Positions 3,612 through 21,826 of a stretch of 35,511 nt of DNA are shown here, in pieces; positions within the stretch are counted from its first letter, which is position 1; the number at the start of each line of letters is the position of its first letter. The position numbers and the translations under genes were made by a program. Where the stretch lies: positions 1 to 35,511 of the forward strand of contig JAGOZX010000028.1 of assembly GCA_018058425.1 (NCBI GenBank), in the 5' to 3' direction. The DNA is from Sebaldella sp. Lineage in GTDB: Bacteria; Fusobacteriota; Fusobacteriia; Fusobacteriales; Leptotrichiaceae. The notes under the pieces were generated by a model that saw only the letters and a list, made by a program, of their open reading frames with translations, did not search any database and was not told the origin of the DNA.

Positions 3612-4091
3612 ATGAAAGCAGCAATAATTTTTGGAAGTAAATCAGATACTGAAAAAATGAGAGGAGCAGCAAAGTGTTTTAAAGAATTTGGAGTAGAATA
3701 CGAAGCACATATATTATCGGCCCATAGAGTTCCGGAAAAATTAGAAGAAGTATTGGAAAATCTTGAAAAAAAAGATATAGAAGTTATTATTGCTGGAGCA
3801 GGATTAGCAGCTCATCTTCCTGGAGTAATAGCCTCAAAGACAGTTTTACCTGTAATAGGTGTTCCTTTAGATGCTGGTTTAGATGGCTTAGATTCACTGT
3901 TTTCTATTGTTCAAATGCCAAAATCTATTCCTGTGGCAACTGTGGGAATAAATAATTCTTATAATGCAGGAATGCTGGCTGTACAGATATTAGCTCTAAA
4001 ATACCCTTTGTTAAAAGAAAAGCTTATTAATTTTCGCAAAGAGATGAAAAAACAGTTTATTATTGAAAATGGAGATGGAGTGGAACTATAG
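3612..4091 (+). CDS. purE: N5-carboxyaminoimidazole ribonucleotide mutase
   Basis: Converts N5-CAIR to CAIR in purine synthesis, as an octameric cytoplasmic enzyme. 159 aa, the usual length. Visible motifs: FGSKSD at the N-terminus (phosphate-binding Ser/Asp), SAHR near residue 36, AGAGLAAHLPG, and the C-terminal GLDSLFSIVQMP and PVATVGINNSYNAG segments. AAHLPG and the SIVQMP block favour class I PurE, which works with PurK, over the class II AIR carboxylase; no purK is in the window. The start is fixed by an AGGAGG box 6 nt upstream. It sits between purL and purC in one transcription direction. Confidence 0.96.
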   Translation: MKAAIIFGSKSDTEKMRGAAKCFKEFGVEYEAHILSAHRVPEKLEEVLENLEKKDIEVIIAGAGLAAHLPGVIASKTVLPVIGVPLDAGLDGLDSLFSIVQMPKSIPVATVGINNSYNAGMLAVQILALKYPLLKEKLINFRKEMKKQFIIENGDGVEL

Positions 4092-4145
4092 AAAGAAGCA
4101 AAGCAATAATAAGAATATTAATAATATAAATTTTAGGAGGATAAG

Positions 4146-4853
4146 ATGGAAAAGAGAGATTTTTTATATGAAGGAAAAGCTAAACAAATATATTCTACAG
4201 ATGATGAAAACTCGGTAATCATACATTATAAAGATGATGCTACAGCTGGAAATGGAGAAAAAAAAGGAAGTATTAAAGATAAAGGAATTATAAATAATCA
4301 GATAACAACTTTATTATTTAAAAGATTAGAAGAAAAAGGAATAAGAACGCATTTTATAAAAAAATTAAATGATAGAGATCAGCTTTGTGAGAAATTAAAG
4401 ATATTTCCTTTAGAGGTCATAGTAAGAAATATAATAACAGGTTCTATGTCAAAAAGGTTGGGAATAGCTGATGGAACTAAGCCTAAGAATACAATACTGG
4501 AAATTTGTTATAAAAATGATGACTTCGGAGATCCTTTAATAAATGATCATCATGCAGTGGCAATGGATCTTATAACATATGAAGAGCTTGAAAAAATATA
4601 TGAAATAACAAGAAAAATAAATGATTTTTTAAAGGAATTATTTGATAAAGAAGGAATAATATTAGTAGATTTTAAAATTGAATTTGGTAAAAATGCCAAA
4701 GGTGAAATACTACTTGCTGATGAGATAACACCAGATACATGTAGATTATGGGATAAGGAAACTGGTAAGAAATTAGATAAAGATAGATTTAGACAGGATT
4801 TAGGTGGAATAGAAGAAGCTTATATAGAAATTTTAAAAAGACTTGAGGCATAA
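4146..4853 (+). CDS. purC: SAICAR synthetase
   Basis: Phosphoribosylaminoimidazole-succinocarboxamide synthase: joins aspartate to CAIR using ATP. 235 aa, the normal length for a monofunctional PurC. Family signatures visible: [10 protein letters not shown] at residues 7-16, DDATAGNG near 31-38, the VIVRNI segment, and [11 protein letters not shown] near 191-201. AGGAGG lies 5 nt before the ATG. Its stop is followed 3 nt later by the purF ATG, so the two are very probably co-translated. Confidence 0.97.
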
Positions 4854-4856
4854 ATT

Positions 4857-6284: not shown

Positions 6285-7266
6285 AAATTCAGGTGTAGAC
6301 AAAGAAGAAGGATATAAAAGTGTAAGTTTGATAAAAGAAATGGTTAAAAGTACTTATAACAAAAATGTTCTTGATGATTTAGGCAGTTTTGGATCATTAT
6401 ATAAATTAGGGAAATATAGAGATCCAGTTTTAGTTTCAGGTACAGATGGAGTAGGAACAAAGCTAAAAATTGCTTTTCACACTAAAAAATATGATACAGT
6501 GGGAATAGACTGTGTGGCAATGTGTGTAAATGATATTTTATGTCATGGAGCAAGACCATTATTTTTCTTAGATTATTTGGCTTGTGGAAAGCTAGATGCT
6601 AAAGTGTCATCAGAGATTGTAAAAGGAGTTGTGGACGGATGTTTGGACTCTAAAATGGCTTTAGTAGGAGGGGAAACAGCTGAAATGCCTGGTTTTTATG
6701 AAGAGGGCGAGTATGATATAGCTGGTTTTGCTGTTGGAGTGGTAGAAAAAAAGGCAGTTATTAATGGAGAAAAAATAAAAGAGGGAAATATTCTTATTGC
6801 TTTGGAGTCAAGCGGAGTACATAGTAATGGTTTTTCGTTGGTAAGAAAATTAGTGACTGATTTAGATGAAGAGTTTGAGGGTGAAAAAATAGGTGAGTAT
6901 TTATTAAGACCTACAAAGATTTACGTAAAACCAGTATTGAAAATTTTGAAAAAATTTAAAGTAAAAGGAATGGCACATATTACAGGTGGAGGACTAATAG
7001 AGAATGTTCCTAGAATTATTCCAGAAGGCTTATGTGCAGTAATTGATAAAGATAAAATAAAAGTGCCTAAAATTTTTGAATATATAAAGTCAAGAGGTGT
7101 TCCTGATGATGAAATGTGGGGAACATTTAATATGGGAGTCGGTTTTGTACTAATTGTAAAAGAAAAAGATAAAGAAAAAATAATTGCTAAATTGGAAAAA
7201 TATGGTGAAAATGCTTATGAAATAGGAAGAATGGAAAAAGGAGATAATAAGATATGTCTAAAATAG
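6271..7266 (+). CDS. purM: Phosphoribosylformylglycinamidine cyclo-ligase (AIR synthetase)
   Basis: Closes FGAM to AIR with ATP. 331 aa. The PurM/PurL-type ATP-binding signature is clear: VLVSGTDGVGTKLKIAF near residues 53-69, then DCVAMCVNDILCHGARPLFFLDY and LVGGETAEMPGFY. The C-terminal AIRS domain contains MAHITGGGLIENVPR and GVPDDEMWGTFNMGVGF. The start overlaps the purF stop by 14 nt; a GGAGG 6 nt upstream, inside purF, supports it. The 3' end overlaps purN by 13 nt, so purF-purM-purN are translationally coupled. Confidence 0.97.
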   Translation: MITYKNSGVDKEEGYKSVSLIKEMVKSTYNKNVLDDLGSFGSLYKLGKYRDPVLVSGTDGVGTKLKIAFHTKKYDTVGIDCVAMCVNDILCHGARPLFFLDYLACGKLDAKVSSEIVKGVVDGCLDSKMALVGGETAEMPGFYEEGEYDIAGFAVGVVEKKAVINGEKIKEGNILIALESSGVHSNGFSLVRKLVTDLDEEFEGEKIGEYLLRPTKIYVKPVLKILKKFKVKGMAHITGGGLIENVPRIIPEGLCAVIDKDKIKVPKIFEYIKSRGVPDDEMWGTFNMGVGFVLIVKEKDKEKIIAKLEKYGENAYEIGRMEKGDNKICLK

Positions 7267-7823
7267 CTGTTCTTGTATCTGGAAGCGGTTCAAATTTACA
7301 ATCTATAATAGACAGTGTAAAGTCTGGAAGATTGGAATGCAGCATAGAGTGTGTCGTTTCTGACAGGGTGTGCTATGCAGTAGAGAGGGCAGAAAAGGTA
7401 GGGATAAAAACAAAAGTTTTAGATAAAGCTGTATATAAAAGAAATCTTTCAGATAAAATAGATGAATTATTAGAAGGAAAGGTAGATTATATAATCTTAG
7501 CAGGTTTTTTATCAATTTTGAATTCAGAGTTTGTAAAAAAATGGGAAAAGAGAATCATAAATATTCATCCATCTTTATTACCAAAATATGGAGGAGCAGG
7601 TATGTATGGAATGAAAATACATGAGGCTGTGATAAGAGATGGCGAAAAAGAAAGTGGTTGCACTGTTCACTATGTAGATTCTGGAATAGATACAGGTGAA
7701 ATTATCATTCAAGAAAAAGTAAAAGTAGAAAAAAATGAGAGTCCAGAAACTCTTCAAGACAAGGTATTGGAGAAAGAACATAGAGTTTTAGTTAAGGCTA
7801 TAGAGATGCTGATCTTAAAGTAA
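7254..7823 (+). CDS. purN: Phosphoribosylglycinamide formyltransferase (10-formyl-THF dependent)
   Basis: Transfers formyl from 10-formyltetrahydrofolate to GAR. 189 aa. GSGSNLQSII at residues 10-19 is the nucleotide-binding start; the catalytic triad aligns as Asn103 and His105 in INIHPSLLP and Asp146 in DSGIDTG. The ATG lies inside the end of purM, with AAGGAG about 10 nt upstream. It ends 56 nt before purH; that gap holds a GGAG box and no obvious terminator. Confidence 0.96.
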   Translation: MSKIAVLVSGSGSNLQSIIDSVKSGRLECSIECVVSDRVCYAVERAEKVGIKTKVLDKAVYKRNLSDKIDELLEGKVDYIILAGFLSILNSEFVKKWEKRIINIHPSLLPKYGGAGMYGMKIHEAVIRDGEKESGCTVHYVDSGIDTGEIIIQEKVKVEKNESPETLQDKVLEKEHRVLVKAIEMLILK

Positions 7824-7879
7824 GCAGGAAGATAATAAATATATAAGAGAAATAAATTAAAAAATTTAAGGAGTATATT

Positions 7880-9382
7880 ATGATAAAAAGAGCTCTAATT
7901 AGTGTATATGATAAAGAAAATATTTTAGAATTTTCAAAATTTTTAGTAGAAAATGATGTGGAAATAATATCAACTGGAGGAACATTTAAGTATTTAAAAG
8001 AAAATGGAATACCTGTGGTAGAAGTTTCTGAAATAACAAATTTTAAAGAAATGTTAGATGGAAGAGTGAAGACACTCCATCCAAATATCCATGGTGGAAT
8101 ACTTGCGATACGTGATAATGAAGTTCATATGAAAACTATAGAAGAAAATGGGATAAAACCAATTGATATAGTTATAGTAAATCTTTATCCATTCTTTGAT
8201 GAAGTAAAAAAGGATAAAACCTTTGATGAAAAAGTAGAGTTTATAGATATAGGCGGTCCTACAATGTTAAGATCAGCAGCTAAGTCTTTTAAAGATGTAA
8301 TAGTGATATCTGAAATAACAGATTATAAGATTGTAAAAGATGAAATAATAGAAAATAAAGATGTTAGCTTTAATACTAGAAAGAAATTAGCAGGAAAAGT
8401 TTTTAATCTTTGTTCTGCATATGATGCAGCTATTTCAGAGTTTTTATTAGATGAAAATTTTCCAAAGTACTTAAATGTATCATATGAAAAAATGTTTGAT
8501 TTAAGATATGGAGAGAATCCACATCAAAAATCTGCATATTATGTGTCTACAGTGCAAGATGGATCAATGAAAAGTTTTGAACAATTAAATGGAAAAGAAC
8601 TTTCTTTTAATAATATACGTGATATGGATATAGCGTGGAAAATAGTAAATGAATTTGAAGAGGCAGCTTGCTCAGCAGTAAAGCATTCTACTCCATGTGG
8701 AGTGGCTGTGGCGGAGAACTCATATGATGCATATAAAAAGGCTTATGAATGTGATCCAATATCTATATTTGGAGGAATAGTAGCATTTAATAAAGAAGTA
8801 GGAGAAGATGAGGCAAGCGAGCTTGCACAGATATTTTTGGAAATAGTAATTGCACCTTCATTTACAGGAAAAGCCTTAGAGATATTAAAAGGTAAGAAAA
8901 ATTTAAGAGTAATAAAAACAAAGCTTGGAAAACCACAAGACAACGTAGAGTATGTGAAAGTTGACGGTGGACTTTTAGTTCAGGACGTAAATAAAGAAAT
9001 GATAAAAGAATTTAAAATAGTAACTAAAAAATCTCCTACAGTAGTAGAAAAAAGAGATATGATGTTGGGGATGAAGGTAGTTAAACATGTAAAATCAAAT
9101 GCAATTGTAGTAGTAAAAGATGGGATGGCTAAAGGGATAGGAACAGGAGAGACAAATAGAATTTGGGCTACAAAGCAAGCTTTAGAAAGAGCAGGAGATG
9201 GTTCAATTTTAGCTTCTGATGCATTTTTCCCATTTAGAGATTGTATAGATGAAGCAGCAAAAGCTGGAATAAAAGCAATTATACAGCCTGGAGGCTCTAT
9301 TAAGGACCAAGAATCTATTGATGCCTGTGATGAATATGGAATAGCAATGGTGTTTACTGGAATTAGACACTTTAAGCATTAA
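7880..9382 (+). CDS. purH: Bifunctional AICAR transformylase / IMP cyclohydrolase
   Basis: Last two steps to IMP. 500 aa, a typical full-length two-domain protein. The N-terminal MGS-like IMP cyclohydrolase domain (about 1-195) contains [22 protein letters not shown] and [14 protein letters not shown]. The C-terminal AICAR transformylase domain has RYGENPHQ, the catalytic Lys268-His269 in [10 protein letters not shown], and SDAFFPFRD. The family motif usually reads KHANPCG or KHNNPCG; here it is KHSTPCG, a mild variant. Start supported by AAGGAG upstream. It is followed 18 nt later by purD. Confidence 0.97.
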
Positions 9383-9400
9383 TATAGACAAGGAGAAAAA

Positions 9401-10645
9401 ATGAAAATATTAATAATTGGAAGCGGTGGAAGAGAGCACGCTATAGCATGGAAATTATCGCAGAATAAAAAAATAAAACATATATATGTTACTCCTGGAA
9501 ATGCAGGAATTGATCTGTTAGAAAAAGGTGAAAGTATAAAAATAAAGGATACAGATGAGATTTTAAAATTTGCACTAGAAGAAAAGATAGATTTAACCTT
9601 AGTGGGAAGTGAAGAATTATTAGTAGCAGGAATAGTAGATAAGTTTAAAGAGAAGAATTTAAAAATCTTTGGGCCTGATAAAAAAGCAGCTATGTTAGAA
9701 GGAAGCAAAGTTTATTCTAAAAAATTTATGAATAAATATGGTGTAAAAACAGCAGAATACGAAGTTTTTACTGATAGTATAAAAGCTTTAGAGTATTTAG
9801 AAAAAATAGAGTTTCCTGTGGTGGTTAAAGCTAGCGGACTGGCTGCTGGGAAAGGAGTTATAATAGCACAAAATAAGGAGGAAGCTAAGACTGCTGTTAG
9901 AGAAATAATGATAGATAAAAAATTTAGTCATGCAGGAGATGAAGTTGTTATTGAAGAGTTTTTGGAAGGATACGAGGCTTCTATTTTATCATTTACAGAC
10001 TCTAGAGTTATACTGCCTATGTTAGCAGCAAAGGATCATAAGAAAATTTATGAAAATGAAACAGGTTTAAATACAGGAGGTATGGGAGTCATTTCTCCTA
10101 ATCCATATGTGACAGAGGAAGTGTTAGAGGAATTTCAGAAAAAAATATTAGAACCAACATTAGATGGAATAAAAAAAGAGGAAATGGACTTTGAAGGAGT
10201 GATTTTCTTTGGAATTATGATAACTAAAAAAGGTGTTTATTTATTAGAATATAACATGAGAATGGGTGACCCTGAAACACAGGCAATACTTCCATTATTA
10301 AAAAGTGACTTATTAGACATAATTGAAAGTTGTTTTGAGAAAGAATTATATAATCAGAAACTTGTATGGGAGGAGAAATATTCTTGTTGTATTGTAGCTT
10401 CTTCTTCTGGATATCCAGAAAAGTATAAGACAGGAATTGAAGTTACTTTTGATGAAAATATTAATTTAGTATTCTTTGCAGGAATTGAAAAACTTGAAAA
10501 TAGGTTTCTAACAGCAGGTGGAAGAGTTTTAAATGTAATAGGAACAGGAGAAAGTTTGGAATTAGCAAGGGAAAAAGCATATGAAAATATAATGAAGATT
10601 CATTTTGATGGCATGTATTATAGAAAAGATATTGGCAAAATATAA
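9401..10645 (+). CDS. purD: Phosphoribosylamine-glycine ligase (GAR synthetase)
   Basis: ATP-grasp enzyme joining glycine to phosphoribosylamine, step 2 of the pathway. 414 aa. Motifs: IGSGGREHAIAWKL at residues 5-18, VVVKASGLAAGKGVIIA around 142-158, EEFLEGYEAS, GMGVISPNPY and EYNMRMGDPETQAILP around 284-299. GGAG lies 7 nt before the ATG. It is the last gene of the pur operon. No GC-rich hairpin follows, only A/T-only inverted repeats (ATAAAAATTTTAT near 10660). Confidence 0.97.
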   Translation: MKILIIGSGGREHAIAWKLSQNKKIKHIYVTPGNAGIDLLEKGESIKIKDTDEILKFALEEKIDLTLVGSEELLVAGIVDKFKEKNLKIFGPDKKAAMLEGSKVYSKKFMNKYGVKTAEYEVFTDSIKALEYLEKIEFPVVVKASGLAAGKGVIIAQNKEEAKTAVREIMIDKKFSHAGDEVVIEEFLEGYEASILSFTDSRVILPMLAAKDHKKIYENETGLNTGGMGVISPNPYVTEEVLEEFQKKILEPTLDGIKKEEMDFEGVIFFGIMITKKGVYLLEYNMRMGDPETQAILPLLKSDLLDIIESCFEKELYNQKLVWEEKYSCCIVASSSGYPEKYKTGIEVTFDENINLVFFAGIEKLENRFLTAGGRVLNVIGTGESLELAREKAYENIMKIHFDGMYYRKDIGKI

Positions 10646-11001: not shown

Positions 11002-11730
11002 ATGAAAAAATTATTAGCTGGTTTATTTGTAGTATCATCAATGTTAGCTTTTTCAGATGAAGTTATTATTAGAGGCGGATTAGATGTCTTCAATGATTTT
11101 AATGGGATGTCTGACTACATAACTGGAGACACAGGAGATAACAGTCTTGGTTATGAATTAGGAGTAGAATACTTGAAAAGTGTAACACCAAACTTTTTAA
11201 TAGGGGCAGGGGTTGCGTATCAAGGACATGCTAAGGCAGAAGGTAAAGATGTACTTTTAGGAAGCTGGTATGATGCTTATGGAGATTATTATGAGCATAC
11301 AGTTGGATATGATGATGAAGTTTACTACGATAGTATTCCATTATACATAACAGCAAAATATGAATTTGATACTAGAAATAAGAACATAAAGCCATATGTA
11401 AAGGCTAATTTAGGTTATTCATTTAACTTAAAAAAGAATGATCTAACTTATAGTGATAAAGTAACTCAATCAGTATATGACTGGTATGATGATATTTATG
11501 ATACTTATGATTATACATACTCATCAGCATCATATGATACAACAATAAAAAATGGTATTTATTATGGAATAGGTGGAGGGATACAAATAAACAATGTTAC
11601 TGTTGATTTAATGTATCAAGCAAACTATGCCAAAGCAAAAATAGACTATAAAGATGGAAGCGGATCAGAAGAGCATGATATAAATGTTTCTAGACTAACT
11701 CTAGGAGTAGGTTACGCATTTCAGTTTTAA
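11002..11730 (+). CDS. Small outer-membrane beta-barrel protein, copy 1
   Basis: 242 aa. Signal peptide MKKLLAGLFVVSSMLAFS with a likely cut before DEV. The rest alternates hydrophobic and polar residues and is rich in Tyr, Gly and Asp, as in beta-barrels, and ends GVGYAFQF; a C-terminal aromatic Phe is the usual barrel-assembly signal. Size suggests an 8- to 10-stranded barrel of the OmpA/OmpW-like group, but the ligand is unknown. A Tyr/Asp-rich stretch near residues 158-180 (VYDWYDD, YDTYDYT, SSASYD) is probably a surface loop. AGGAGG lies 6 nt before the ATG. It is a 91% identical tandem paralogue of the next gene. Confidence 0.88.
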   Translation: MKKLLAGLFVVSSMLAFSDEVIIRGGLDVFNDFNGMSDYITGDTGDNSLGYELGVEYLKSVTPNFLIGAGVAYQGHAKAEGKDVLLGSWYDAYGDYYEHTVGYDDEVYYDSIPLYITAKYEFDTRNKNIKPYVKANLGYSFNLKKNDLTYSDKVTQSVYDWYDDIYDTYDYTYSSASYDTTIKNGIYYGIGGGIQINNVTVDLMYQANYAKAKIDYKDGSGSEEHDINVSRLTLGVGYAFQF

Positions 11731-11870: not shown

Positions 11871-12599
11871 ATGAAAAAATTATTAGCTGGATTATTTGTA
11901 GTATCATCAATGTTAACATTTTCAGATGAAGTTATTATTAGAGGTGGGCTAGATGTATATAGCAATTTTAGCGGAATGTCAGATTACATAACAGGGGATT
12001 CAGGAAATGATAGTCTTGGTTATGAATTAGGAGTAGAGTATTTAAAAAATGTAACACCAAACTTTTTAATAGGAGTAGGAACTGCATATCAAGGGCATGC
12101 TAAGGCAGAAGGTAAAAATGTACTTTTAGGAAGCTGGTATGACGGATATGGAGATTACTATGAGCATACTGTAGGATATGATGACAAAGTTTATTATGAC
12201 AGTATCCCATTATATGTAACTGCAAAATATGAATTTGATACTAGAAATAAAAATATAAAGCCGTATGTAAAGGCTAACTTAGGTTACTCATTTAACTTAA
12301 AAAAGAACGATCTAACTTATAGTGATAAAGTAACTCAATCAGTGTATGACTGGTATGATGATGCTTACGATACTTATGATTATACAAATTCATCAGCATC
12401 TTATGATACAAAGATAAAAAATGGAATCTATTATGGAATAGGTGGAGGAGTACAAATAAACAATGTTACAGTTGATTTAATGTATCAAGCAAACTATGCC
12501 AAAGCAAAAATAGATTATAAAGATGGAAGCGGATCAGAAGAGCATAACTTAAATGTTTCTAGAGTGACTCTAGGAGTAGGTTACGCATTCCAATTTTAA
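11871..12599 (+). CDS. Small outer-membrane beta-barrel protein, copy 2
   Basis: 242 aa, same length as copy 1, with 22 substitutions and no gaps (220/242 identical by direct comparison). The substitutions cluster in residues 30-47 and at scattered loop positions such as 92, 106, 164 and 172; the signal peptide and the GVGYAFQF end are conserved. The same secreted barrel architecture and unknown ligand apply. AGGAGG precedes the ATG. The gene is followed after 30 nt by the Pro/Arg-rich lipoprotein, with no terminator between. Confidence 0.88.
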   Translation: MKKLLAGLFVVSSMLTFSDEVIIRGGLDVYSNFSGMSDYITGDSGNDSLGYELGVEYLKNVTPNFLIGVGTAYQGHAKAEGKNVLLGSWYDGYGDYYEHTVGYDDKVYYDSIPLYVTAKYEFDTRNKNIKPYVKANLGYSFNLKKNDLTYSDKVTQSVYDWYDDAYDTYDYTNSSASYDTKIKNGIYYGIGGGVQINNVTVDLMYQANYAKAKIDYKDGSGSEEHNLNVSRVTLGVGYAFQF

Positions 12600-13843: not shown

Positions 13844-13926
13844 AGAAATACCTTATTTAGAAGCTGGTAACTCTCTACCATAGACATATTATATAGTTGA
13901 TATAAATAATATATATTACGTTACTA

Positions 13927-13955
13927 TTGACATTTAATGCTCATTTTATTATAAT
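13927..13955 (+). promoter_or_regulatory. Strong promoter of the structured leader and amino acid ABC operon
   Basis: Perfect TTGACA (13927-13932), a 17-nt spacer and perfect TATAAT (13950-13955); transcription should begin near 13962. A second TATAAT lies at 13961-13966 but has no -35. This is the best promoter match I found in the window. Confidence 0.8.
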
Positions 13956-13989
13956 TTACGTATAATAGAATACTTTAGGAGGAACTAAA

Positions 13990-14031
13990 ATGGTAGAGAA
14001 AGTTTTTGAAAGCATGTGTCATCATAGGTAA
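13990..14031 (+). CDS. Possible 13-aa leader peptide
   Basis: ATG preceded by a perfect AGGAGG (13977-13982) at the ideal 7-nt spacing, encoding MVEKVFESMCHHR and then TAA. It lies inside the structured leader: its ribosome site forms the 5' strand of P1 and its last codons form the 5' strands of P2 and P3. Two His codons and an Arg just before the stop would suit a His/Arg-sensing attenuator upstream of an amino acid importer, but the SD-ATG combination could also be a by-product of RNA structure. No homologue is known to me. Confidence 0.4.
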   Translation: MVEKVFESMCHHR

Positions 14032-14133
14032 GGGTTTGTGCAGTAGTGGTACAGACTCTTGTTAGAATGTTTTAATTTGAGTCTTACCTGTGATGCTTTC
14101 TGAAACTTGTTTTATTTAGTTCTTATAAAAAAG

Positions 14134-14161
14134 CTCTCAGGGAACTGAGAGAATTTTTTTT
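14134..14161 (+). terminator. Conditional terminator of the leader
   Basis: CTCTCAG (14134-14140), GGAA tetraloop, CTGAGAG (14145-14151), then AA and eight T residues. It lies before, not after, the ABC genes, and 30 nt upstream of the first start codon, as attenuator terminators do. Confidence 0.85.
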
Positions 14162-14191
14162 ATTATATATTTGTTTGAAAGGAAGGTGTCT

Positions 14192-14989
14192 ATGAAGAGA
14201 ATTATTTTATCGTTGATATTCGTACTTAGTATATTAATGTGTGGTAAAAAAGAAAGTAGTAAAGTTAGTGAGTCAGCTGGTGAAGATAAGCTGCCGGAAA
14301 AACTAGTTATTGGGTTAGACGATACTTTTGCACCAATGGGTTTTAGAGATGATAAGGGTGAATTAGTGGGGTTTGATATTGATTTAGCTAAGGCAGTAGG
14401 AGAAAAGCTAGGGTTAAAGGTAGAATTTCAGCCAATAAATTGGGATACAAAAGATCTAGAACTAAAAAATGGAAATGTTAATTTAATATGGAATGGACTT
14501 ACAATAACAGAAGATAGAAAAAAACAAATGCAATTTTCTGATCCTTATTTAGAAAATTCTCAGGTAATAGTGATAAAAAAAGATTCATTAATAAAAACAA
14601 AAGAGGACTTGGCTGGAAAAGTTATAGGAACTCAAAGTAAAAGTAGTGGAGAGGAAGCTGTCTTAAAAGATCCTATTAATCCTAAACTAAAAGAACTAAG
14701 AACTTATGACACATATGATCAAGCATTCTTAGATTTAGATGCTGGAAGAATAGAAGCAATAGCTGCAGATGAAGTATTAGCAAGATATATAAAAACAAAT
14801 AAAGAAAAAAAAGAGGGTAAAGATTTATATGTAGTTTTAGACTCTAGTAATTTTGGAAAAGAAGAATATGGAATTGGAGCAAAAAGCAGTGATACATTCT
14901 TGATTTCAAAAATAAATGAAGCACTAAAAGAGTTAAAAGAAGATGGTACATATAATAAGATACACGATAAATGGTTTGGAGCAAAGTAG
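14192..14989 (+). CDS. Polar amino acid ABC transporter, substrate-binding lipoprotein
   Basis: 265 aa from the ATG at 14192; AAAGGAAGG lies about 5 nt upstream, so the in-frame TTG at 14171 is not the start. Signal MKRIILSLIFVLSILMC followed by GKK: a lipoprotein start, although Met just before the Cys is unusual for a lipobox. The mature part is a family 3 solute-binding protein: VIGLDDTFAPMGFRDDKGELVGFDIDLAKAV, NLIWNGLTITEDRKKQM, FSDPYLENSQVIVI, and the C-terminal LKEDGTYNKIHDKWFG. The TEDRKKQM…FSDPY wording fits His/Arg/Lys/Gln or cystine binders; the ligand cannot be decided by eye. Arg in TEDR is the usual carboxylate contact. Followed 9 nt later by the permease. Confidence 0.92.
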   Translation: MKRIILSLIFVLSILMCGKKESSKVSESAGEDKLPEKLVIGLDDTFAPMGFRDDKGELVGFDIDLAKAVGEKLGLKVEFQPINWDTKDLELKNGNVNLIWNGLTITEDRKKQMQFSDPYLENSQVIVIKKDSLIKTKEDLAGKVIGTQSKSSGEEAVLKDPINPKLKELRTYDTYDQAFLDLDAGRIEAIAADEVLARYIKTNKEKKEGKDLYVVLDSSNFGKEEYGIGAKSSDTFLISKINEALKELKEDGTYNKIHDKWFGAK

Positions 14990-14998: not shown

Positions 14999-15646
14999 AT
15001 GAGCGAATTATCTATATTTTTACAAATTTTAAGTTCATTACCAAATGTACTAATAATATATTTTGTAACTGCAATATTTTCACTGCCTTTAGGAATATTA
15101 GGAGCACTTGCCTATACCAGTGATTCAAATATTTTTAAAAAAGTAATTTCTTTTTTTACTTGGATATTTAGAGGAACACCACTTTTATTACAATTATTTT
15201 TTATTTATTATGGGCTTCCTATACTTACAAATAATGTGATAGTTTTAGATAGAATGCCAGCGGCTTTAGTTACATTTATTATAAATTACACAGCATACTT
15301 AGTGGAGATAGTTAGAAGTGGTTTAGAAAGTATAGATAAAGGGCAAAGTGAAGCAGCAAAAGTACTAGGTTATACTTATTCTCAAAAAATAAGATATATA
15401 ATTCTTCCTCAGGCAATAAGAAGGGTTTTACCTTCTCTGGGAAATGAAGCTATTACATTGCTGAAAGATACAGCACTTATATATATATTATCATTAACAG
15501 AAATTCTAAAAGCTACTAAGGAAATAGCAAATAGATATTCAATAATAACACCTTATCTTTATGCTGGAATAATTTATTTAGGACTTAGTTTTTTAATAGA
15601 TAAAATATTTAAAAATATTGAAAAAAGAAATAAAGTGAGAGTATAA
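14999..15646 (+). CDS. Polar amino acid ABC transporter, permease
   Basis: 215 aa integral membrane protein of the HisMQ family, with about five hydrophobic segments. The RGTPLLLQLFFIYYGLP motif near residues 60-76 is typical of this group. The EAA loop reads EAAKVLGYTYSQKIRYIILPQAIRRVLPSLGNE near 118-150, which contacts the ATPase. It is a single permease, so the transporter is probably a permease homodimer, as in GlnP/YecS-type systems. GGAG sits just before the start, and the ATPase start follows its stop by 1 nt. Confidence 0.95.
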   Translation: MSELSIFLQILSSLPNVLIIYFVTAIFSLPLGILGALAYTSDSNIFKKVISFFTWIFRGTPLLLQLFFIYYGLPILTNNVIVLDRMPAALVTFIINYTAYLVEIVRSGLESIDKGQSEAAKVLGYTYSQKIRYIILPQAIRRVLPSLGNEAITLLKDTALIYILSLTEILKATKEIANRYSIITPYLYAGIIYLGLSFLIDKIFKNIEKRNKVRV

Positions 15647-15647: not shown

Positions 15648-16379
15648 ATGACTATAATAGAAGTAAAAGGCGTAGAAAAAAGTTATAGCGGAAATAAAGT
15701 TTTAGATAATGTATCCCTAAAAATAAATAAAGGGGAAGTAGTCTCTATTATTGGACCTTCTGGGAGTGGAAAGTCGACATTGCTTCGTAGTATAATAGAC
15801 CTAGAAGAAGTAGATAGTGGTAAAATATTAATTGAAGGATTTGACATTACAGATAAGTCATTAAATAAAGTAAAGAAAAAAGAGACTTTATTAAAAACTG
15901 GGATGGTTTTTCAAAATTTCAATTTATTTCCACATATGTCTGTTAGAAACAATATCACTAGAACTTTGAAAGTGGTGAAAAAATCTTCTAACGATGAAGC
16001 AAAAGCAATAACAGAAAAAGTATTATTAAAGGTTGGGCTCTTAGATAAAATAGATAATTTTCCAAATGAATTATCAGGTGGGCAGAAACAAAGAGTAGCA
16101 ATAGCACGTGCAATGGCATTAAATCCAGATATACTGTTGTTTGATGAGCCAACTTCTGCACTTGATCCAGAACTAGTAAAAGAAGTATTGGACATTATTA
16201 AGAAGTTAAAAGATGAAAAAACAACTATGTTAATTGTAAGTCATGAAATGAAATTTGTAAAAGATATATCGGATAAAGTAATTGTCATGGAAAATGGTAA
16301 GATATTAGAGGAAGGAACGCCAGAAAAGATTTTTGAAAATTCTTCTTTGGAAAGAGTAAGAGAGTTTTTAAAACTGTAA
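15648..16379 (+). CDS. Polar amino acid ABC transporter, ATP-binding protein
   Basis: 243 aa GlnQ/HisP-type ATPase. Walker A GPSGSGKST near 38-46, Q-loop VFQNFNLFPHMSV, signature LSGGQKQRVAIARAMA, Walker B ILLFDEPTSALDP, and the switch His in VSHEMKF. The family often has GMVFQ-x-FNLFPH as here. It completes a one-binding-protein, one-permease, one-ATPase importer. It follows the permease by a single base (TAATATG), with no distinct ribosome site, so translation is probably coupled. It ends 18 nt before the M23 gene. Confidence 0.96.
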   Translation: MTIIEVKGVEKSYSGNKVLDNVSLKINKGEVVSIIGPSGSGKSTLLRSIIDLEEVDSGKILIEGFDITDKSLNKVKKKETLLKTGMVFQNFNLFPHMSVRNNITRTLKVVKKSSNDEAKAITEKVLLKVGLLDKIDNFPNELSGGQKQRVAIARAMALNPDILLFDEPTSALDPELVKEVLDIIKKLKDEKTTMLIVSHEMKFVKDISDKVIVMENGKILEEGTPEKIFENSSLERVREFLKL

Positions 16380-16397
16380 ATAAAGGTGCGGTTTAAT

Positions 16398-17186
16398 ATG
16401 AAAAAGTTTTTTATAGTTACAATTACAGATATAAATGGAATTAGAAGTTACAAATTAAATGAGAAAATAAAAAAAATATTTTCCGTTATTGGTGTATCTG
16501 TATCTATTTATTTAGTAATCTCTATAATTGGGATTTTATTTCTCGGAGGTTCATACTTAAAAAATTCTGATATTTTATCACAAAATAGAGATTTAAGAAA
16601 ATTTAAATCAGACTATGAGTTAGAGCAAAAAAGAGAAAAAGAAAGAGAGAATAAAAAGGTTGATATAGATCATCTAAATGAAGTCTCTAAAGTAAAGAAA
16701 AATAGAATATTACGTATGATACCTAATTCATTTCCAGTAAAAGCAGATACTCGAATGACTAGTGAATTTGGTAGTAGAGTTCATCCTATATCAGGTGTAG
16801 TAAAGGATCATAAAGGCCTAGATTTTGGAACTGGAATGGATGCGGATATATATTCTACAGCTGATGGAATAGTAAGCTTTGCTGGTCAGCAAAATGGCTA
16901 TGGAAATGTTGTGATTATAGATCATAGCTTTGGTTTTCGGAGTTTTTACGCTCATTTGAATTCATATTCAGTGAGTACACGACAATTTGTTAAAAAAGGT
17001 GAAGTAGTAGCTAAGAGTGGAAATACTGGTAATAGTACAGGGCCACATTTGCACTATGAAATAAGATTTTATGGAACACAGTTAGATCCCAAAAATTTTG
17101 TAAATTGGGACGCTGAACATTTTGATTATTTATTCAAAAACGAGAGGAGTATAGAATGGGAGTCTTTTCTAAAGGAAGTAATATGA
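16398..17186 (+). CDS. Membrane-anchored M23 family metallopeptidase
   Basis: 262 aa from the ATG at 16398 (AAAGG about 11 nt upstream; an in-frame GTG at 16386 lies within that site). A short cytoplasmic start is followed by one membrane helix (IFSVIGVSVSIYLVISIIGILFLGG, about 28-52, described by its ends), then a charged, probably coiled-coil stretch (about 62-100), then an M23 (LytM) domain. Zinc ligands: His138 and Asp142 in HKGLD, and His219 in HLHYE, with His217 as the catalytic partner. All are intact, so it should be an active peptidoglycan endopeptidase in the periplasm. It overlaps the bactofilin gene by 31 nt, an arrangement seen in other bacteria where bactofilins position M23 enzymes to shape the cell. 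Confidence 0.93.
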   Translation: MKKFFIVTITDINGIRSYKLNEKIKKIFSVIGVSVSIYLVISIIGILFLGGSYLKNSDILSQNRDLRKFKSDYELEQKREKERENKKVDIDHLNEVSKVKKNRILRMIPNSFPVKADTRMTSEFGSRVHPISGVVKDHKGLDFGTGMDADIYSTADGIVSFAGQQNGYGNVVIIDHSFGFRSFYAHLNSYSVSTRQFVKKGEVVAKSGNTGNSTGPHLHYEIRFYGTQLDPKNFVNWDAEHFDYLFKNERSIEWESFLKEVI

Positions 17187-17551
17187 TTTCAGAAACAAAT
17201 ATAACAGTAATTTCTTCAAATACAGAATTTAAGGGGGATATTACAACAGAGGGAATAATACAAATAGAAGGTAAGTGTGAAGGTAAGATAACATCTAGAA
17301 ATTCTGTAATAGTGGGATTAGCTGGAACTGTAACAGGAGAAATAATAGCTGAGGAAATAGTAGTAAATGGAAGAGTAAATGGTACAGTAGAAGCAGATAG
17401 AGTTAGAATTGGTGAAAAAGGAATATTAAAAGCTACAGTTATATCTGAAATATTTGCTATATCAGAAGGTGGAAGCTTTGAGGGTGAGAAAAAGTTTAAA
17501 CTAAAAAGATCAGAAGAAGAGTATATAGAAGCAGATACAGAGTTAGTATAA
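17156..17551 (+). CDS. Bactofilin (polymer-forming cytoskeletal protein)
   Basis: 131 aa. The central part (about 22-105) is a right-handed beta-helix with regularly spaced hydrophobics and glycines: GDITTEGIIQIEGKCEGKI, VIVGLAGTVTGEIIAEEIVVNGRVNGTVEADRV, IGEKGILKATVI (split here into segments). Short N-terminal tail and an acidic C-terminal tail, as in bactofilins, which form non-polar filaments on the inner membrane without nucleotide. The start is set by GAGGAG upstream of the ATG, inside the M23 gene. The overlap implies coupled translation, and probably a shared role in local peptidoglycan remodelling. Confidence 0.93.
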   Translation: MGVFSKGSNMISETNITVISSNTEFKGDITTEGIIQIEGKCEGKITSRNSVIVGLAGTVTGEIIAEEIVVNGRVNGTVEADRVRIGEKGILKATVISEIFAISEGGSFEGEKKFKLKRSEEEYIEADTELV

Positions 17552-17567
17552 AGTGGAGGTGGAAGCG

Positions 17568-18581
17568 TTGTCGAAGCATATAGAAGTAAAAAACTTAACT
17601 AAAATATATAAAAATAAGGAACGAGAATTTAAAGCAGTAGATGACGTAACATTATCTATAAATAAAAATGATATATATGGGATAATGGGATTAAGTGGAG
17701 CAGGAAAATCTACTTTTATAAGAATGTTGAACAGATTAGAAGAACCTACTTCAGGAGAAATATTTGTTAATGGGAAAAATATAATTAATTTTTCTAAAAA
17801 CGAATTAATGGAATATAGAAGAAAAACTGGAATGATATTTCAACATTTTAATCTACTAAGTTCTAGAGATGTAAAAGGAAATGTGGCATTTGCATTAGAA
17901 TTAGCTAAGTGGCCTAAGAATAAAATTGATCCTAGAGTTGATGAATTATTAGAATTAGTTGGTTTAGAAGATAAAAAAGATGTTTTTCCAAGTCAGTTAT
18001 CTGGAGGACAAAAGCAAAGAGTGGCAATAGCAAGAGCTTTAGCTAATTACCCAGAAATATTACTGTCTGATGAAGCAACTAGTGCATTAGATCCAAGAAC
18101 TACAGCCTCTATACTGGAACTTTTAAAAGATATTCAGAGTAAGCTGGGTTTAACAATAGTTCTAATAACACATCAAATGGAAGTAATAAGAAAAGTTTGT
18201 AATAGAACAGCTATAATGTCAGAAGGAAAAGTAATTGAAGAAGCAGCAACTAAAGAAATATTTTTAAATCCTAAGAATGAGCTGACTAGAGAGTTTGTAT
18301 CTCATATAACACCTGAAAGAGAAAGAAAAAATGAAAAATTAAAAATAGGAGACAGACAAGTAGTCAGATTAAATTTTCCAGGGGATCAAGCTGATAAGCC
18401 TTATATTTCTGAATTAGTGAAAAAGTTTGGCTTGGATTTAAATATATTAGGTGGATCAATTGATGATCTTACTGATGCTAGTATTGGACATTTACTTGTG
18501 GAATTTCTTGGTAATGATGAAGATAGAAATAATGCAATAATTTGGCTAAAAGATAACAAAATTGAAGTGGAGGAAATATAA
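17568..18581 (+). CDS. metN: Methionine ABC transporter, ATP-binding protein
   Basis: 337 aa from TTG at 17568, placed by the GTGGAGGTGG site ending about 6 nt upstream; upstream GTG codons lie inside that site. Walker A GLSGAGKST, Q-loop IFQHFNLLSSRDVKGNVAFALE, signature LSGGQKQRVAIARALA, Walker B ILLSDEATSALDP (DEAT is typical of MetN) and switch His ITHQMEV. A C-terminal NIL/ACT-like domain (about 255-337, containing LGGSIDDL) is where MetN binds methionine and self-inhibits; its presence argues for methionine or a related ligand. One-base overlap (TAATG) with metI. Confidence 0.96.
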   Translation: MSKHIEVKNLTKIYKNKEREFKAVDDVTLSINKNDIYGIMGLSGAGKSTFIRMLNRLEEPTSGEIFVNGKNIINFSKNELMEYRRKTGMIFQHFNLLSSRDVKGNVAFALELAKWPKNKIDPRVDELLELVGLEDKKDVFPSQLSGGQKQRVAIARALANYPEILLSDEATSALDPRTTASILELLKDIQSKLGLTIVLITHQMEVIRKVCNRTAIMSEGKVIEEAATKEIFLNPKNELTREFVSHITPERERKNEKLKIGDRQVVRLNFPGDQADKPYISELVKKFGLDLNILGGSIDDLTDASIGHLLVEFLGNDEDRNNAIIWLKDNKIEVEEI

Positions 18582-19261
18582 TGAAATTTAATTGGGCAGA
18601 ATTTTTAAATTTTAGTGATATGGTAATGCCGCTTTGGGAGACTATATATATGGTTGTTATCTCAATGTTTTTTGCTTTGTTAATTGGTCTTCCAATAGGA
18701 ATATTACTTGTAATTAGTGAAGAAAATCATATAGCTCCAAATAAAACTCTAAATAAAATTTTAGATATAATACTAATTAATATAACTAGATCTATTCCAT
18801 TTATTATTTTGATGGTGGTATTAATACCATTAGCAAGAGAGATAGTCGGAAAGTCATTTGGTTCAGAGGCATTTATAGTATATTTATCACTAGGGTCGGC
18901 ACCTTTTGTGGCAAGAGTAATAGAGGGTTCGCTAAATGAAGTAGATGGAGGATTAATAGAAGCTTCAAAATCTTTAGGAGCATCAAATTTTCATATTATA
19001 ATGAAAGTTTTACTTCCAGAAGCTCTTCCTTCACTAATACACGGTATAGTTTTAACACTTATTACCTTAATAGGTTATTCAGCAATGGCTGGAATAGTGG
19101 GTGGCGGCGGCTTAGGGAATTCAGCAGTAGTGGCTGGTTTTCAAAATAGTAATCCTGAAATAATTTGGAAAGCTACAATAATTATAATAGTTTTAGTACA
19201 AATTATACAATTTTTTGGTAATATTATGGTATCAAAAATATATAAAAAAAGAGGAAAATAG
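18581..19261 (+). CDS. metI: Methionine ABC transporter, permease
   Basis: 226 aa, five predicted membrane segments. Family blocks: ETIYMVVISMFFALLIGLPIG near 20-40, NITRSIPFIILMVVLIPLAR, the EAA coupling loop EASKSLGASNFHIIMKVLLPEALPSL near 127-152, and GYSAMAGIVGGGGLGNSAV near 164-182, which is strongly MetI. It pairs with MetN; the start overlaps the metN stop by one base and metQ follows after 9 nt. Confidence 0.96.
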   Translation: MKFNWAEFLNFSDMVMPLWETIYMVVISMFFALLIGLPIGILLVISEENHIAPNKTLNKILDIILINITRSIPFIILMVVLIPLAREIVGKSFGSEAFIVYLSLGSAPFVARVIEGSLNEVDGGLIEASKSLGASNFHIIMKVLLPEALPSLIHGIVLTLITLIGYSAMAGIVGGGGLGNSAVVAGFQNSNPEIIWKATIIIIVLVQIIQFFGNIMVSKIYKKRGK

Positions 19262-19270
19262 GAGGACAAA

Positions 19271-20098
19271 ATGAAAAAGTTTTTAATTGGATTATTAACA
19301 TTAGGAGTAATATTTTCTTGTGGAAAAAAGGAAGAAAAGCCTACAGCAGAAGCTACACCAAAAGAGGAAACAAAAACAGAACAAAAATTAGTTATAGGTG
19401 CATCACCAACACCACACGCAGAGATTTTGGAACAAGTTAAAGAGGACCTGAAAAAAGAGGGAATTGATTTAGAAATAAAGATATTTAATGATTATGTTTT
19501 ACCAAATAAATTATTAGGAGATAAAAGCCTAGATGCTAATTTTTTCCAGCATGTACCATATATGGAAGAGTTTGCTAAAAAAAATAACATGGAATTAGTA
19601 GCTGTGGGAAAAGTACATGTAGAGCCACTAGCAGCATTTTCTAAAAAACATAAATCAATAGATGAATTACCAGTTGGAGCAGAAGTATTAATTCCAAACG
19701 ACCCTACAAATGGTGGTAGAGCTTTAATTTTATTAGATAAAAAAGGAATAATAAAGTTAAAAGATAATACAAAATTAGATTCTTCAATAGCTGATATAGC
19801 AGAAAATCCTAAAAAGATAAAATTTACTGCTATGAATGCTGAGCAAATACCAGCAAGATTAGTAGAAGTAGATGCAGCAGTAATAAATGGAAACTTTGCT
19901 ATTAAAAATGGCTTGAATCCAGTTACAGAAAGCATATTAATAGAGGATGCAGATTCTCCATATGCGAATGTAATAGTTGTATTAAAAGGAAGTGAAAATG
20001 ATGAAAGAATTCAAAAGTTAGTAAAAGCTTTACAAAGTGAAAAAATTAAAAAATTCATAGAAGAAAAATATAAAGGATCAGTAATACCAGCATTTTAA
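19271..20098 (+). CDS. metQ: MetQ/NlpA-family binding lipoprotein, copy 1
   Basis: 275 aa. Signal ends LGVIFSC, then GKKEEKP and a Glu/Thr/Lys-rich linker, typical of a tethered lipoprotein. The domain starts near LVIGASPTPHAEIL. Conserved blocks: NDYVLPNKLL, DANFFQHVPYMEEF, IPNDPTNGGRALILLDK, AVINGNFAIKNGL and EDADSPYANVIVV. The Asn in NGNFA corresponds to the methionine-contacting region of MetQ. AGGAGG lies just before the start. It is the metQ immediately joined to metNI and has a terminator after it. Confidence 0.94.
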   Translation: MKKFLIGLLTLGVIFSCGKKEEKPTAEATPKEETKTEQKLVIGASPTPHAEILEQVKEDLKKEGIDLEIKIFNDYVLPNKLLGDKSLDANFFQHVPYMEEFAKKNNMELVAVGKVHVEPLAAFSKKHKSIDELPVGAEVLIPNDPTNGGRALILLDKKGIIKLKDNTKLDSSIADIAENPKKIKFTAMNAEQIPARLVEVDAAVINGNFAIKNGLNPVTESILIEDADSPYANVIVVLKGSENDERIQKLVKALQSEKIKKFIEEKYKGSVIPAF

Positions 20099-20104
20099 CA
20101 AATA

Positions 20105-20150
20105 AAAAAATCAGAAGGAGAGATATTCTGGATTCTTAGTCTGATTTTTT
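20105..20150 (+). terminator. Terminator between metQ copies 1 and 2
   Basis: AAAAAATCAGA (20105-20115) pairs with TCTGATTTTTT (20140-20150), with a T-run at the end and a 24-nt apical part that can add a few pairs. It would lower expression of the two downstream metQ genes relative to the first. Confidence 0.75.
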
Positions 20151-20200
20151 TTTAGAAATAATTCTGTAAACTAAAATCTGAAACTAAAAGGAGTTATATA

Positions 20201-20986
20201 ATGAAGAAATTATTTTTTATTTTATTTGCAATAACATTATCGGTCTCTTGCATTAAAAAGGAAAATGGAACTGTATTAAAAATAGGTGTAACTCCTGTTC
20301 CACACGCTGAAATTTTAAAAATAGTCAGTGAAGATTTGGAAAAAGAAGGAATAAAGCTAGAAATTATAAATTTTGAGGATGCAGTAATACCAAATCAAGA
20401 GGTTGCAAATAAAGGTTTAGATGCTAATTATATTCAACATACTCCTTATATGGAAGATTTTAATAAAAAATACAATACAAAATTAGTATCAGCTGGAAAA
20501 ATACATGTAGAACCATTAGCAATGTATTCCAAAAAAATCAAATCAATTAATGATTTAACACCTGGAGCAGAAATTCTAATACCAAATAATGCCACTAATC
20601 AGGGAAGAGCACTTTTATTATTGGACAAGAGTGGAATAATAAAATTAAAAGATAATACAAAGTTAGATTCAACAGTAAATGATATAGTGAAAAATCCTAA
20701 AAAATTAAAAATAATTCCTATGGCAGCAGAGCAAATTGCACCAAGAATTAATGAAGTAGAAGGTGCTATAATAAATGGGAACTTTGCTATAGCAAATAAC
20801 TTAACGATAACAGATGATGCTATTTTAGTAGAGGATAAGGACTCACCTTATGCAAATATAGTAACTGTTTTAGATGGAAATCAAAATAATGAAGCAATAC
20901 AAAAATTAATGAAGGCTTTACAAAGTGAGAAAGTAAAGAAATTTATAGAAGAGAAATATAAAGGTTCAGTAATACCAGCATTTTAA
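20201..20986 (+). CDS. MetQ/NlpA-family binding lipoprotein, copy 2
   Basis: 261 aa, shorter than copy 1 because the linker after the lipobox (LSVSC, then IKKENG) is nearly absent. Same blocks as copy 1: VTPVPHAEIL, DANYIQHTPYMEDF, IHVEPLAMYSKK, IPNNATNQGRALLLLDK, IINGNFAIANNL, DKDSPYANIVTV. The last stretch, FIEEKYKGSVIPAF, is identical to copy 1, so the duplication is lineage-specific. It departs from the usual PNDPTN wording (PNNATN). AAAGGAG precedes the ATG; I saw no clear promoter after the terminator. Methionine, D-methionine or a small Met-containing peptide is the likely ligand. Confidence 0.92.
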   Translation: MKKLFFILFAITLSVSCIKKENGTVLKIGVTPVPHAEILKIVSEDLEKEGIKLEIINFEDAVIPNQEVANKGLDANYIQHTPYMEDFNKKYNTKLVSAGKIHVEPLAMYSKKIKSINDLTPGAEILIPNNATNQGRALLLLDKSGIIKLKDNTKLDSTVNDIVKNPKKLKIIPMAAEQIAPRINEVEGAIINGNFAIANNLTITDDAILVEDKDSPYANIVTVLDGNQNNEAIQKLMKALQSEKVKKFIEEKYKGSVIPAF

Positions 20987-21010
20987 GAAAAATTATCAGG
21001 AGGATTCAAT

Positions 21011-21826
21011 ATGAAAAAATTATTAATTGGAATAATAATGGGAACACTATTATTATCATGTGGCAAAAAAGATGAAACAAAGACAGGAACAGGTTCAGGA
21101 GAGAGTAAAAAGGAAATCTTAAAAGTAGCGGCAACTCCAGAGCCACATGGGGAAATTTTAAAGGCAGCAATACCATTAATGGAAAAAGAGGGAATAGAGC
21201 TACAAGTAGAAATATTTAATGATTATGTTATGCCAAATAAAGTTTTAGCAGAGAAAAGTGTAGACGCTAATTTATTTCAACATAAGCCATTTATGGATAA
21301 TTACAATGTAAAAAATGGTACTGAAATAGTAGATGTAGCAAGAAGTTATACTGCTCCATTAGCATTATATTCAGCTAAATATAAAAGCTTAGATGAAATA
21401 CCAGCAAAAGGAGAAATTTTAATAGCAAATGACCCAACTAACTTAGCTAGATCACTAATATTATTAGATAAAATTGGTGTTATAAAATTAAAAGATCCAA
21501 CTAATGTAGTGGCAACTTTAGCAGATATAGTAGAAAACCCTAAAAATCTAAAAATCACAGTATTAACTGCAGATCAAATAGCTATTAGATTAAAAGAAGT
21601 AGATGCAGCTGTAATACCTGGAAATTATGCAGTGAAAAATGGATTAAATCCTGAGGAAAGTTTAGCAGTGGAAAGTAAGGATTCACCATATGCAAATGTA
21701 CTAGCAGTATTGAAAGGTAATGAAAATGATGAAAGAATTAAAAAATTAATAAAAGTTCTTCAAAGTGATGAAATGAAAGAAATAGTAAAAGAAAAATACA
21801 AAGGCTCTGTAATAGCTACGTTTTAA
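21011..21826 (+). CDS. MetQ/NlpA-family binding lipoprotein, copy 3
   Basis: 271 aa. Good lipobox (LLLSC, then GKKDE) and a Gly/Thr/Ser linker. More diverged than copies 1 and 2: RSYTAPLALYSAK replaces KVHVEPLAxxSKK, and the ligand-loop segment reads AVIPGNYAVKNGL instead of INGNFA. It keeps DANLFQHKPFMD, ANDPTNLARSLILLDK and ESKDSPYANVLAV. The changed pocket residues suggest a different ligand or affinity, still feeding MetNI, since no other permease is nearby. AGGAGG precedes the ATG and the gap to copy 2 is 24 nt. Confidence 0.92.
   Translation: MKKLLIGIIMGTLLLSCGKKDETKTGTGSGESKKEILKVAATPEPHGEILKAAIPLMEKEGIELQVEIFNDYVMPNKVLAEKSVDANLFQHKPFMDNYNVKNGTEIVDVARSYTAPLALYSAKYKSLDEIPAKGEILIANDPTNLARSLILLDKIGVIKLKDPTNVVATLADIVENPKNLKITVLTADQIAIRLKEVDAAVIPGNYAVKNGLNPEESLAVESKDSPYANVLAVLKGNENDERIKKLIKVLQSDEMKEIVKEKYKGSVIATF

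Follow-up and report, generated by a model that had tools for sequence, protein, structure and literature searches.

The his and trp attenuators of Proteobacteria combine alternating hairpins and an intrinsic terminator with a leader open reading frame (ORF) that contains codons for the amino acid under regulation, and a ribosome at the leader stop codon covers the segment that would begin the antiterminator. To our knowledge, the known leader-peptide attenuators are separate inventions that share this principle and no common RNA. Here we describe an RNA element ahead of an amino-acid ATP-binding cassette (ABC) importer operon in a 35,511-nucleotide stretch of Sebaldella sp. DNA (GenBank assembly GCA_018058425.1, contig JAGOZX010000028.1, positions 1 to 35,511, forward strand; hereafter the window). 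Judged by its sequence and relatives, it is very likely a histidine-responsive, ribosome-mediated transcription attenuator, the scaffold of which is likely reused in Fusobacteriota with other codons for other amino acids. The attenuation principle is ordinary; what is new is one inherited scaffold with exchangeable codons.

Compared by way of the Rfam family RF00514 and the available part of one description (PMC1183508), the element shares with the his/trp attenuators the leader ORF, the cognate codons, the alternating hairpins, the terminator and the predicted coverage at the stop codon, but differs in that one RNA core serves many specificities and that segment A pairs with segment D around the helix B:C (Table 1). 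Similar to the T-box (RF00230), it combines one scaffold and many specificities with a specificity codon and a terminator/antiterminator output; however, the T-box reads uncharged tRNA directly, whereas here the reading would be done through translation of a peptide. The trpB motif (RF04312, SRC-39-1) of Firmicutes and Fusobacteria is presented in the available sections of PMC11109978 as a strong riboswitch candidate for which a classic attenuator was not ruled out. In Bacilli, His-codon leader peptides precede hisZ and hisS* (available sections of PMC2965389); the hisZ leaders there have, as here, a His-codon leader ORF and a terminator outside Proteobacteria, and the word Fusobacteri is absent from that text. 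The uORF motifs of Breaker and colleagues, such as uORFC-8-2 before cysS and uORFC-13-1 before aroF, are likewise predicted leader-peptide attenuators with cognate codons, but each is bound to one gene, in Rhodobacterales or Acholeplasma, and none is described for Fusobacteria in the accessible portion of PMC8632094. In the literature searched, outside which most subscription journals lay, no description of these attenuators in Fusobacteria was found.

The first-pass annotation of the window had drawn a closed domain of helices P1 to P3 topped by a hairpin with a 7-nt loop and a second hairpin. All of them are present within 1-2 bases in the minimum free energy (MFE) fold, and the TTGACA-17-TATAAT promoter and the terminator before the importer genes are also where it had placed them. 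The MFE of 13966-14165 is -63.5 kcal/mol, compared to -41.1 (sd 3.7) for 200 shuffles, none of which is as good (z -5.98). What had been overlooked is a leader ORF with its Shine-Dalgarno sequence inside the fold: P1, P2 and P3 overlap its start and codons, and its end, ESMCHHR followed by the stop codon, is identical across three same-genus leaders. Among the Rfam covariance models, no family reaches its gathering score anywhere in the window; His_leader RF00514 is below gathering and gives no row at E<=10, T-box RF00230 gives nothing at gathering in the window and nothing at E<=10 in 13900-14200, and RF04312 scores 24.8 bits against a cut-off of 59, with a full-length alignment on C:D and E:F. 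The element had been called undescribed, which stands as far as Rfam families at threshold are concerned and fails for its 3' half, the counterpart of the published trpB motif.

Segments A to F allow the mutually exclusive pairings A:D, B:C, C:D, D:E (antiterminator) and E:F (terminator), in which E is common to D:E and E:F, and D is common to A:D and C:D. In the D:E pairing of the window, CCTGTGATGCTTTC (14087-14100) pairs with AAGCTCTCAGG at -12.2 kcal/mol; counterparts exist in homologues, and AGCTCTCAGG lies in segment E of 8 of the 9 Leptotrichiaceae leaders. A different antiterminator, TTTAGTTCT:GGAACTGAG, had been proposed originally. This pairing is possible in the window (-7.9 kcal/mol versus -7.8 for P1) but is not kept in homologues: both congeners read TTTAGTCCT, which gives an A.C mismatch there and in P1, and GGAACTGAG occurs in just 3 of 30 leaders (set A4), all of one genus. 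It was discarded. Of the 121 leaders in which segment C was located, 112 have a T-rich TTT/TTGT stretch 3' of it (about 14059-14065 in the window); this stretch goes beyond what pairing explains and may be a polymerase pause or a protein site.

From the leader ORF, the codon-gene match, the pairings A:D, B:C, C:D and D:E and the terminator E:F, all read from sequence and comparison, we infer a response to charged tRNA, a folding order and histidine as the amino acid sensed in the window. When charged tRNA-His is low, the ribosome would stall at the His codons and cover A, leaving B free; B would pair with C as C emerges, D would be left to E, no terminator would form and the importer would be transcribed. 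A ribosome at the stop codon would cover B, so that C:D and then E:F would form and transcription would end. With no ribosome on the leader, A:D enclosing B:C (or C:D) would also leave E for F and end transcription. Because D amounts to an antisense strand of the regulatory codons, new codons would need matching changes in D and E; across the family, D and E do change along with the codons.

The first leaders came from a DNA search of 60 relatives and from searching 33 genomes of the family for the binding protein. Eight sequences of the core were used to build a covariance model (R1), which gave 30 loci in 29 of the 98 genomes of Fusobacteriota. All 30 R1 importer loci carry a Shine-Dalgarno sequence and a leader ORF, the stop of which lies from 1 nt inside a GTTTGT box to 6 nt before it. 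The importer leaders belong to Fusobacteriaceae (21) and Leptotrichiaceae (9), and end in HHHHHR, HHHHRY, HHHHHG, HHHR, CHHR or a few variants before the stop; among the Fusobacteriaceae orthologues, runs of 4-5 His stand ahead of the same kind of binding protein, and the leader of genome G011 is MHHHR. Diverged copies lie upstream of hisZ, and his operons have such leaders too, one of which (L109) scores 34.5 bits against RF00514 (cut-off 49, E 0.055). One leader (L032, G013) is absent from the importer table, as its A segment falls outside the search pattern. Scanning GTDB contigs with a sequence pattern returned 11 hits, including Cetobacterium and Fusobacterium: R1 matches all 6 in Fusobacteriota and none of the 5 others. 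On these 5, a later model (R3, below) has a single weak match (L079, E 0.036), which does not coincide with the pattern hit.

The first-pass annotation had suggested a riboswitch for a free amino acid. In the homologues, however, a Shine-Dalgarno sequence is retained together with a short ORF, and the codons of this ORF correspond to the amino acid of the gene that follows. This is a hallmark of ribosome-mediated attenuation, and the element is therefore most likely an attenuator of that type and not a riboswitch; the annotated position of an attenuator ahead of an amino-acid ABC operon is supported. It also seems very improbable that ribosome stalling is caused by the peptide ESMCHHR itself and triggered by a small molecule. 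The identity of this peptide and its stop in three same-genus sequences would fit such a nascent-peptide arrest, but outside the genus only cognate residues and some short family-specific flanks are conserved, and what stays constant family-wide is the amino acid that the gene calls for.

Covariation among homologues, on which the original fold had been staked, is present in A:D, B:C and C:D. Across 29 distinct importer leaders, pairs form in 335/348 cells of A:D, 283/319 of B:C, 372/435 of C:D and 309/330 of D:E. At position D0, Leptotrichiaceae have C and Fusobacteriaceae T, with corresponding changes in its partners in A (there with some G.U), C and E; D3 and D9 change together with E. In 21 leaders including those of his operons (A5), A:D plus B:C show 25 double-change cells versus 9.3 after shuffling, which leaves relatedness in, and 90.9% pairing versus 31-50% for slid controls, which take relatedness out, with the caveat that a structure derived from the same sequences tends to outscore its own slid versions; C:D shows 25 double-change cells versus 9.8. 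The corresponding values in 42 leaders of all specificities (A7) are 61 versus 25.0 for A:D plus B:C and 41 versus 18.9 for C:D.

The scaffold stands ahead of genes for at least six amino acids besides His across Fusobacteriota. A model built from 21 leaders (R2; 20 His and one MCMS), hence trained almost wholly on His leaders, has matches at E<=0.05 in 63 of the 98 genomes and recovers leaders in which the scaffold carries different codons, ahead of genes for the amino acid that these codons specify. A further model from 42 leaders (R3) has matches in 17/33, 27/33 and 29/32 genomes at E<=0.3, a cut-off that lets in chance matches. We read 118 further matches (58 of R2 and 60 of R3, with some of R3 left unread). 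By leader, the downstream families, each assigned from 1-2 representatives by NCBIfam or Pfam, are PutP (PIPPR or NPMVP), TrpS (YWWC or HWWF), TrpX (YWQSH or SWQSHWI; above its cut-off), sodium-dependent symporters (WW or WWW), TyrS (YYYYY), the AGCS symporter (YYYYYLT), ThrS (TTTT), MetN and MetG (NMMMMLWKGL), MetY (MMMYM or LMMML-type), homoserine dehydrogenase (NMLMMMLW), AsnA (NNNN), aspartate-semialdehyde dehydrogenase (TITTTIIIM), DAHP synthase (WYFYYYF) and, in one case each, a dicarboxylate-type symporter (MCCCM) and a sulfite/nitrite reductase (MCMC). No credible leader was seen in 17 of the 118 matches, mostly plain terminators (L191, L202, L203, L209-L211, L213, L215, L217, L218, L220, L221, L227, L235, L237, L253 and L258), and L155, L157, L161, L165, L179 and L245 were excluded as duplicates or truncated. 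In the resulting table of 135 leaders, to which the hisZ leaders L105, L112 and L116 do not belong, the ORFs of L185, L200 and L240 have no clear Shine-Dalgarno sequence and were taken by a looser rule, and the ORF calls of L052, L166 and L168 were corrected by hand.

The match between codons and genes was assessed for HisZ, PutP, TrpS, TyrS, ThrS, MetG, MetN and AsnA, with one leader per family and genus (26 units). The last 12 codons contain 103 expected residues versus 24.8 with permuted labels (0 of 10,000 permutations as high), and the expected residue is the commonest or joint commonest in 23 units. In a partner test of 52 units, A pairs with its own D at -13.5 kcal/mol and with a D of another specificity at -8.7, and D pairs with its own E at -13.0 and with another at -8.5; none of 5,000 permutations was as low for either A:D or D:E. 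The own partner is the best of all specificities in just 13 of the 52 units for A:D and 8 for D:E, and the median unit beats 91%. Both sets of permutations correct for relatedness only in part. An ordinary stable 5' leader and terminator free of translational regulation, with the ORF and alternative pairings arising by chance, would account for the model matches that are plain terminators, but is the least probable explanation of all given the covariation in mutually exclusive helices, the codon-gene match and the matched partners in A:D and D:E.

The attenuator was also examined for its spacing and folding. With an assumed ribosome footprint, B stays free in 134 of the 135 leaders when the first regulatory codon is in the A site, and at least 4 nt of B are covered in 131 when the ribosome is at the stop codon; both hold in 130, and in two of the exceptions, L180 and L261, B was probably misplaced by the pattern. 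In the window, a ribosome at the first His codon clears B by 1 nt, and one at the stop covers 8 nt of it. In masked folding with C emerged, B:C amounts to 0.75-1.00 with the ribosome at the first His codon and <=0.01 at the stop in 29 of 30 importer leaders (the exception, L048, has 0.45), and all 30 have D:E values of 0.00-0.01 in both the free and the stop state. The predicted first step, the choice of B:C, is thus well supported.

Several observations weigh against this reading. With B:C held, D:E reaches at least 0.5 in 17 of the 30 leaders but 0.11 in the window, and its equilibrium mean, for a ribosome placed at the first His codon, is 0.14 in the 21 Fusobacteriaceae and 0.19 in the 9 Leptotrichiaceae leaders. 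As C:D often wins at equilibrium unless B:C is held, the model needs a kinetic order, and the D:E step that would rest on it is weakly predicted, most weakly in the window. Within each family, D:E covariation among importer leaders is not above shuffling. The terminator finder placed 122 of the 135 leaders and missed 13, including the window and its two congeners, so that this genus is outside the permutation test of D:E and A:D. No leader was found at 13 g3 (Leptotrichia-like) loci with a binding-protein orthologue, and two importer-type leaders, SMCSHRC (G009) and MCMS (G018), have no consecutive His. Moreover, the window has two His codons only, with Met and Cys codons just upstream, and Cys or Met could contribute to its response.

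That the window copy of the attenuator responds mainly to cysteine or methionine is, altogether, unlikely, though less so than the other alternatives. The M-C codons before HHR would fit the MetN, MetI and NlpA-type genes downstream, ESMCHHR is identical in three same-genus leaders, and a Neisseria cystine receptor is among the structural neighbours of the binding protein (27% identity). In addition, the MCMS leader of G018, with no His and an added Met, directly precedes MetN (assigned by its NIL domain), MetI and two NlpA/MetQ-like genes; a binding-protein orthologue was not found in this genome at E<=1e-20. However, MHHHR of G011 has no Cys, the Fusobacteriaceae orthologues have 4-5 His, and the histidine-bound 4ohn is the nearer relative (40%), and histidine is the putative substrate of the importer.

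In G009, one transporter cluster has two leaders (L118), one ahead of the binding protein and the other ahead of the permease. The terminator arm of the latter differs (GGTTCTCAGG), and its D segment is still able to pair with this arm. As single cases of a possible specificity switch, this double leader and the MCMS leader of G018 are suggestive only.

The P1 and terminator of the trpB motif coincide with C:D and E:F here, and the antiterminator predicted in its P1 right shoulder corresponds to D (available sections of PMC11109978). The motif likewise sits before amino-acid ABC transporters and is present in Fusobacteria; in the same sections, no leader ORF or codon-gene link is noted for it. 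RF04312 has matches at E<=0.1 in 52 of the 98 Fusobacteriota genomes, none above its cut-off. Of its 46 matches at E<=1e-3, 42 overlap R3 matches and start 27-49 nt inside them, so that RF04312 covers segments C to F. The four off R3 comprise a Trp leader before TrpX (L298) and three stretches with no leader (L302, L303 and L304); among 18 further RF04312 stretches, L311 (Tyr, AGCS symporter) is a clear attenuator, L307 is a likely one and 16 have no credible leader. At gathering, Rfam found solely a tandem glycine riboswitch and tRNA in 20 attenuator loci, and at E<=0.5, in 18 of those loci and relatives, RF04312 in L053, L055, L109 and L183, a weak Phe_leader in L089 (E 0.11) and other sub-threshold rows. 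We conclude from these alignments that the trpB motif in Fusobacteriota corresponds to the downstream half of this attenuator.

A metabolite riboswitch, in which the closed A:D/B:C domain would bind an amino acid and control the terminator, agrees with the strong fold, with the bases conserved in B, in C and in the loop after it, and with the listing of RF04312 as a strong riboswitch candidate in the available sections of PMC11109978. It nevertheless appears improbable, as a ligand pocket needs neither gene-matching leader codons nor a D segment that follows them, and a single pocket could hardly sense all the amino acids whose genes are served by one B/C core.

Altogether, the attenuator reading probably applies at two levels jointly: much of the amino-acid metabolism of Fusobacteriota would be under one ancestral attenuator with at least ten codon cassettes (His, Pro, Trp, Tyr, Thr, Thr/Ile, Met, Cys, Asn, Phe/Tyr/Trp and probably Leu) and re-fitted D and E, a T-box-like sensor with the ribosome as reader, and the trpB candidate of Firmicutes and Fusobacteria would be its 3' half and no riboswitch. 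This re-reading of a published candidate is testable. The attenuator would supply a means of control in a phylum where T-box matches are few (21 of 98 genomes at E<=0.01 under strict filters, 2 over the cut-off). A published T-box count for two Fusobacteria/Thermotogae genomes was zero (available part of PMC2494555). Because the B/C core stays constant and the codons vary jointly with D and E, the sequences would show how a new specificity arises.

The codons also predict substrates: tyrosine for the AGCS symporter, tryptophan for the sodium-dependent symporters and cysteine for one dicarboxylate-type symporter. Five-Tyr leaders precede AGCS (sodium:alanine family) symporters at L226, L229, L231, L249, L255, L259 and L311, which suggests that these carry tyrosine. 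The leader MRKFRELMCCCMKL before a dicarboxylate/amino-acid:cation symporter (L219, G018) suggests a cysteine or cystine transporter. A Leu-rich leader ending in NVLLLLADLL before a sodium-dependent symporter (L307, G057) would be a leucine version, and a Trp-containing leader, FTWQSWYFED, precedes a family 5 peptide-binding protein (L247, G068). At L175 (G050), a tandem glycine riboswitch (214-308, 587-735) lies between a Thr/Ile attenuator and the aspartate-semialdehyde dehydrogenase gene (833), and the two types of RNA regulation may operate one after the other.

Table 1. Predicted features of the histidine leader and of the genes downstream in the window
Feature	Position	Strand	Description
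Promoter (predicted)	13927..13955	+	TTGACA 13927-13932, TATAAT 13950-13955, spacer 17 nt; exact consensus hexamers
Shine-Dalgarno of leader ORF	13977..13982	+	AGGAGG; also within P1 5' strand
Outer helix P1	13981..13989, 14115-14123	+	5' and 3' strands; in MFE fold; both congeners mismatched
Leader ORF	13990..14031	+	MVEKVFESMCHHR and stop, 13 codons; ATG 13990, His codons 14020-14025, stop 14029-14031
Segment A	14008..14032	+	GAAAGC 14008-14013 and CATCATAGGTAAG 14020-14032 (regulatory codons); pairs with D; from fold and pair counts
Segment B	14032..14041	+	GGGTTTGTGC, directly 3' of stop codon; pairs with C
Segment C	14048..14058	+	GGTACAGACTC; pairs with B or D
Segment D	14079..14100	+	GAGTCTTACCTGTGATGCTTTC; pairs with A, C or E
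Segment E	14131..14141	+	AAGCTCTCAGG; terminator 5' arm or partner of D (antiterminator)
Segment F	14145..14161	+	CTGAGAG 14145-14151 and T run 14154-14161; terminator 3' arm (stem 14134-14140/14145-14151)
Amino-acid ABC transporter binding protein	14192..14989	+	SBP_bac_3; relative of histidine-bound 4ohn, 40%
Permease	14999-15646	+	same importer
ATPase	15648-16379	+	same importer
M23 peptidase	16386-17186	+	close-packed behind importer
Bactofilin	17156-17551	+	close-packed behind importer
MetN, MetI, three NlpA/MetQ-like lipoproteins	17553..21826	+	
NlpA/MetQ-like lipoproteins	19271-20098, 20201-20986, 21011-21826	+	the three lipoproteins of the preceding row; consecutive, behind MetN and MetI; first by Pfam

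The MetN, MetI and lipoprotein genes are presumably co-transcribed with the leader. Two further R3 matches in the window are weak: 25099-25178 on the minus strand (E 0.023), a plain terminator, and 5250-5341 (E 0.31). Upstream, 106-10645 holds what we take, from protein features, to be a purine biosynthesis gene cluster. It is followed by two tandem near-identical 242-residue ORFs (11002-11730 and 11871-12599; 86% identity over a 300-nt repeat), which look like outer-membrane beta-barrel proteins.
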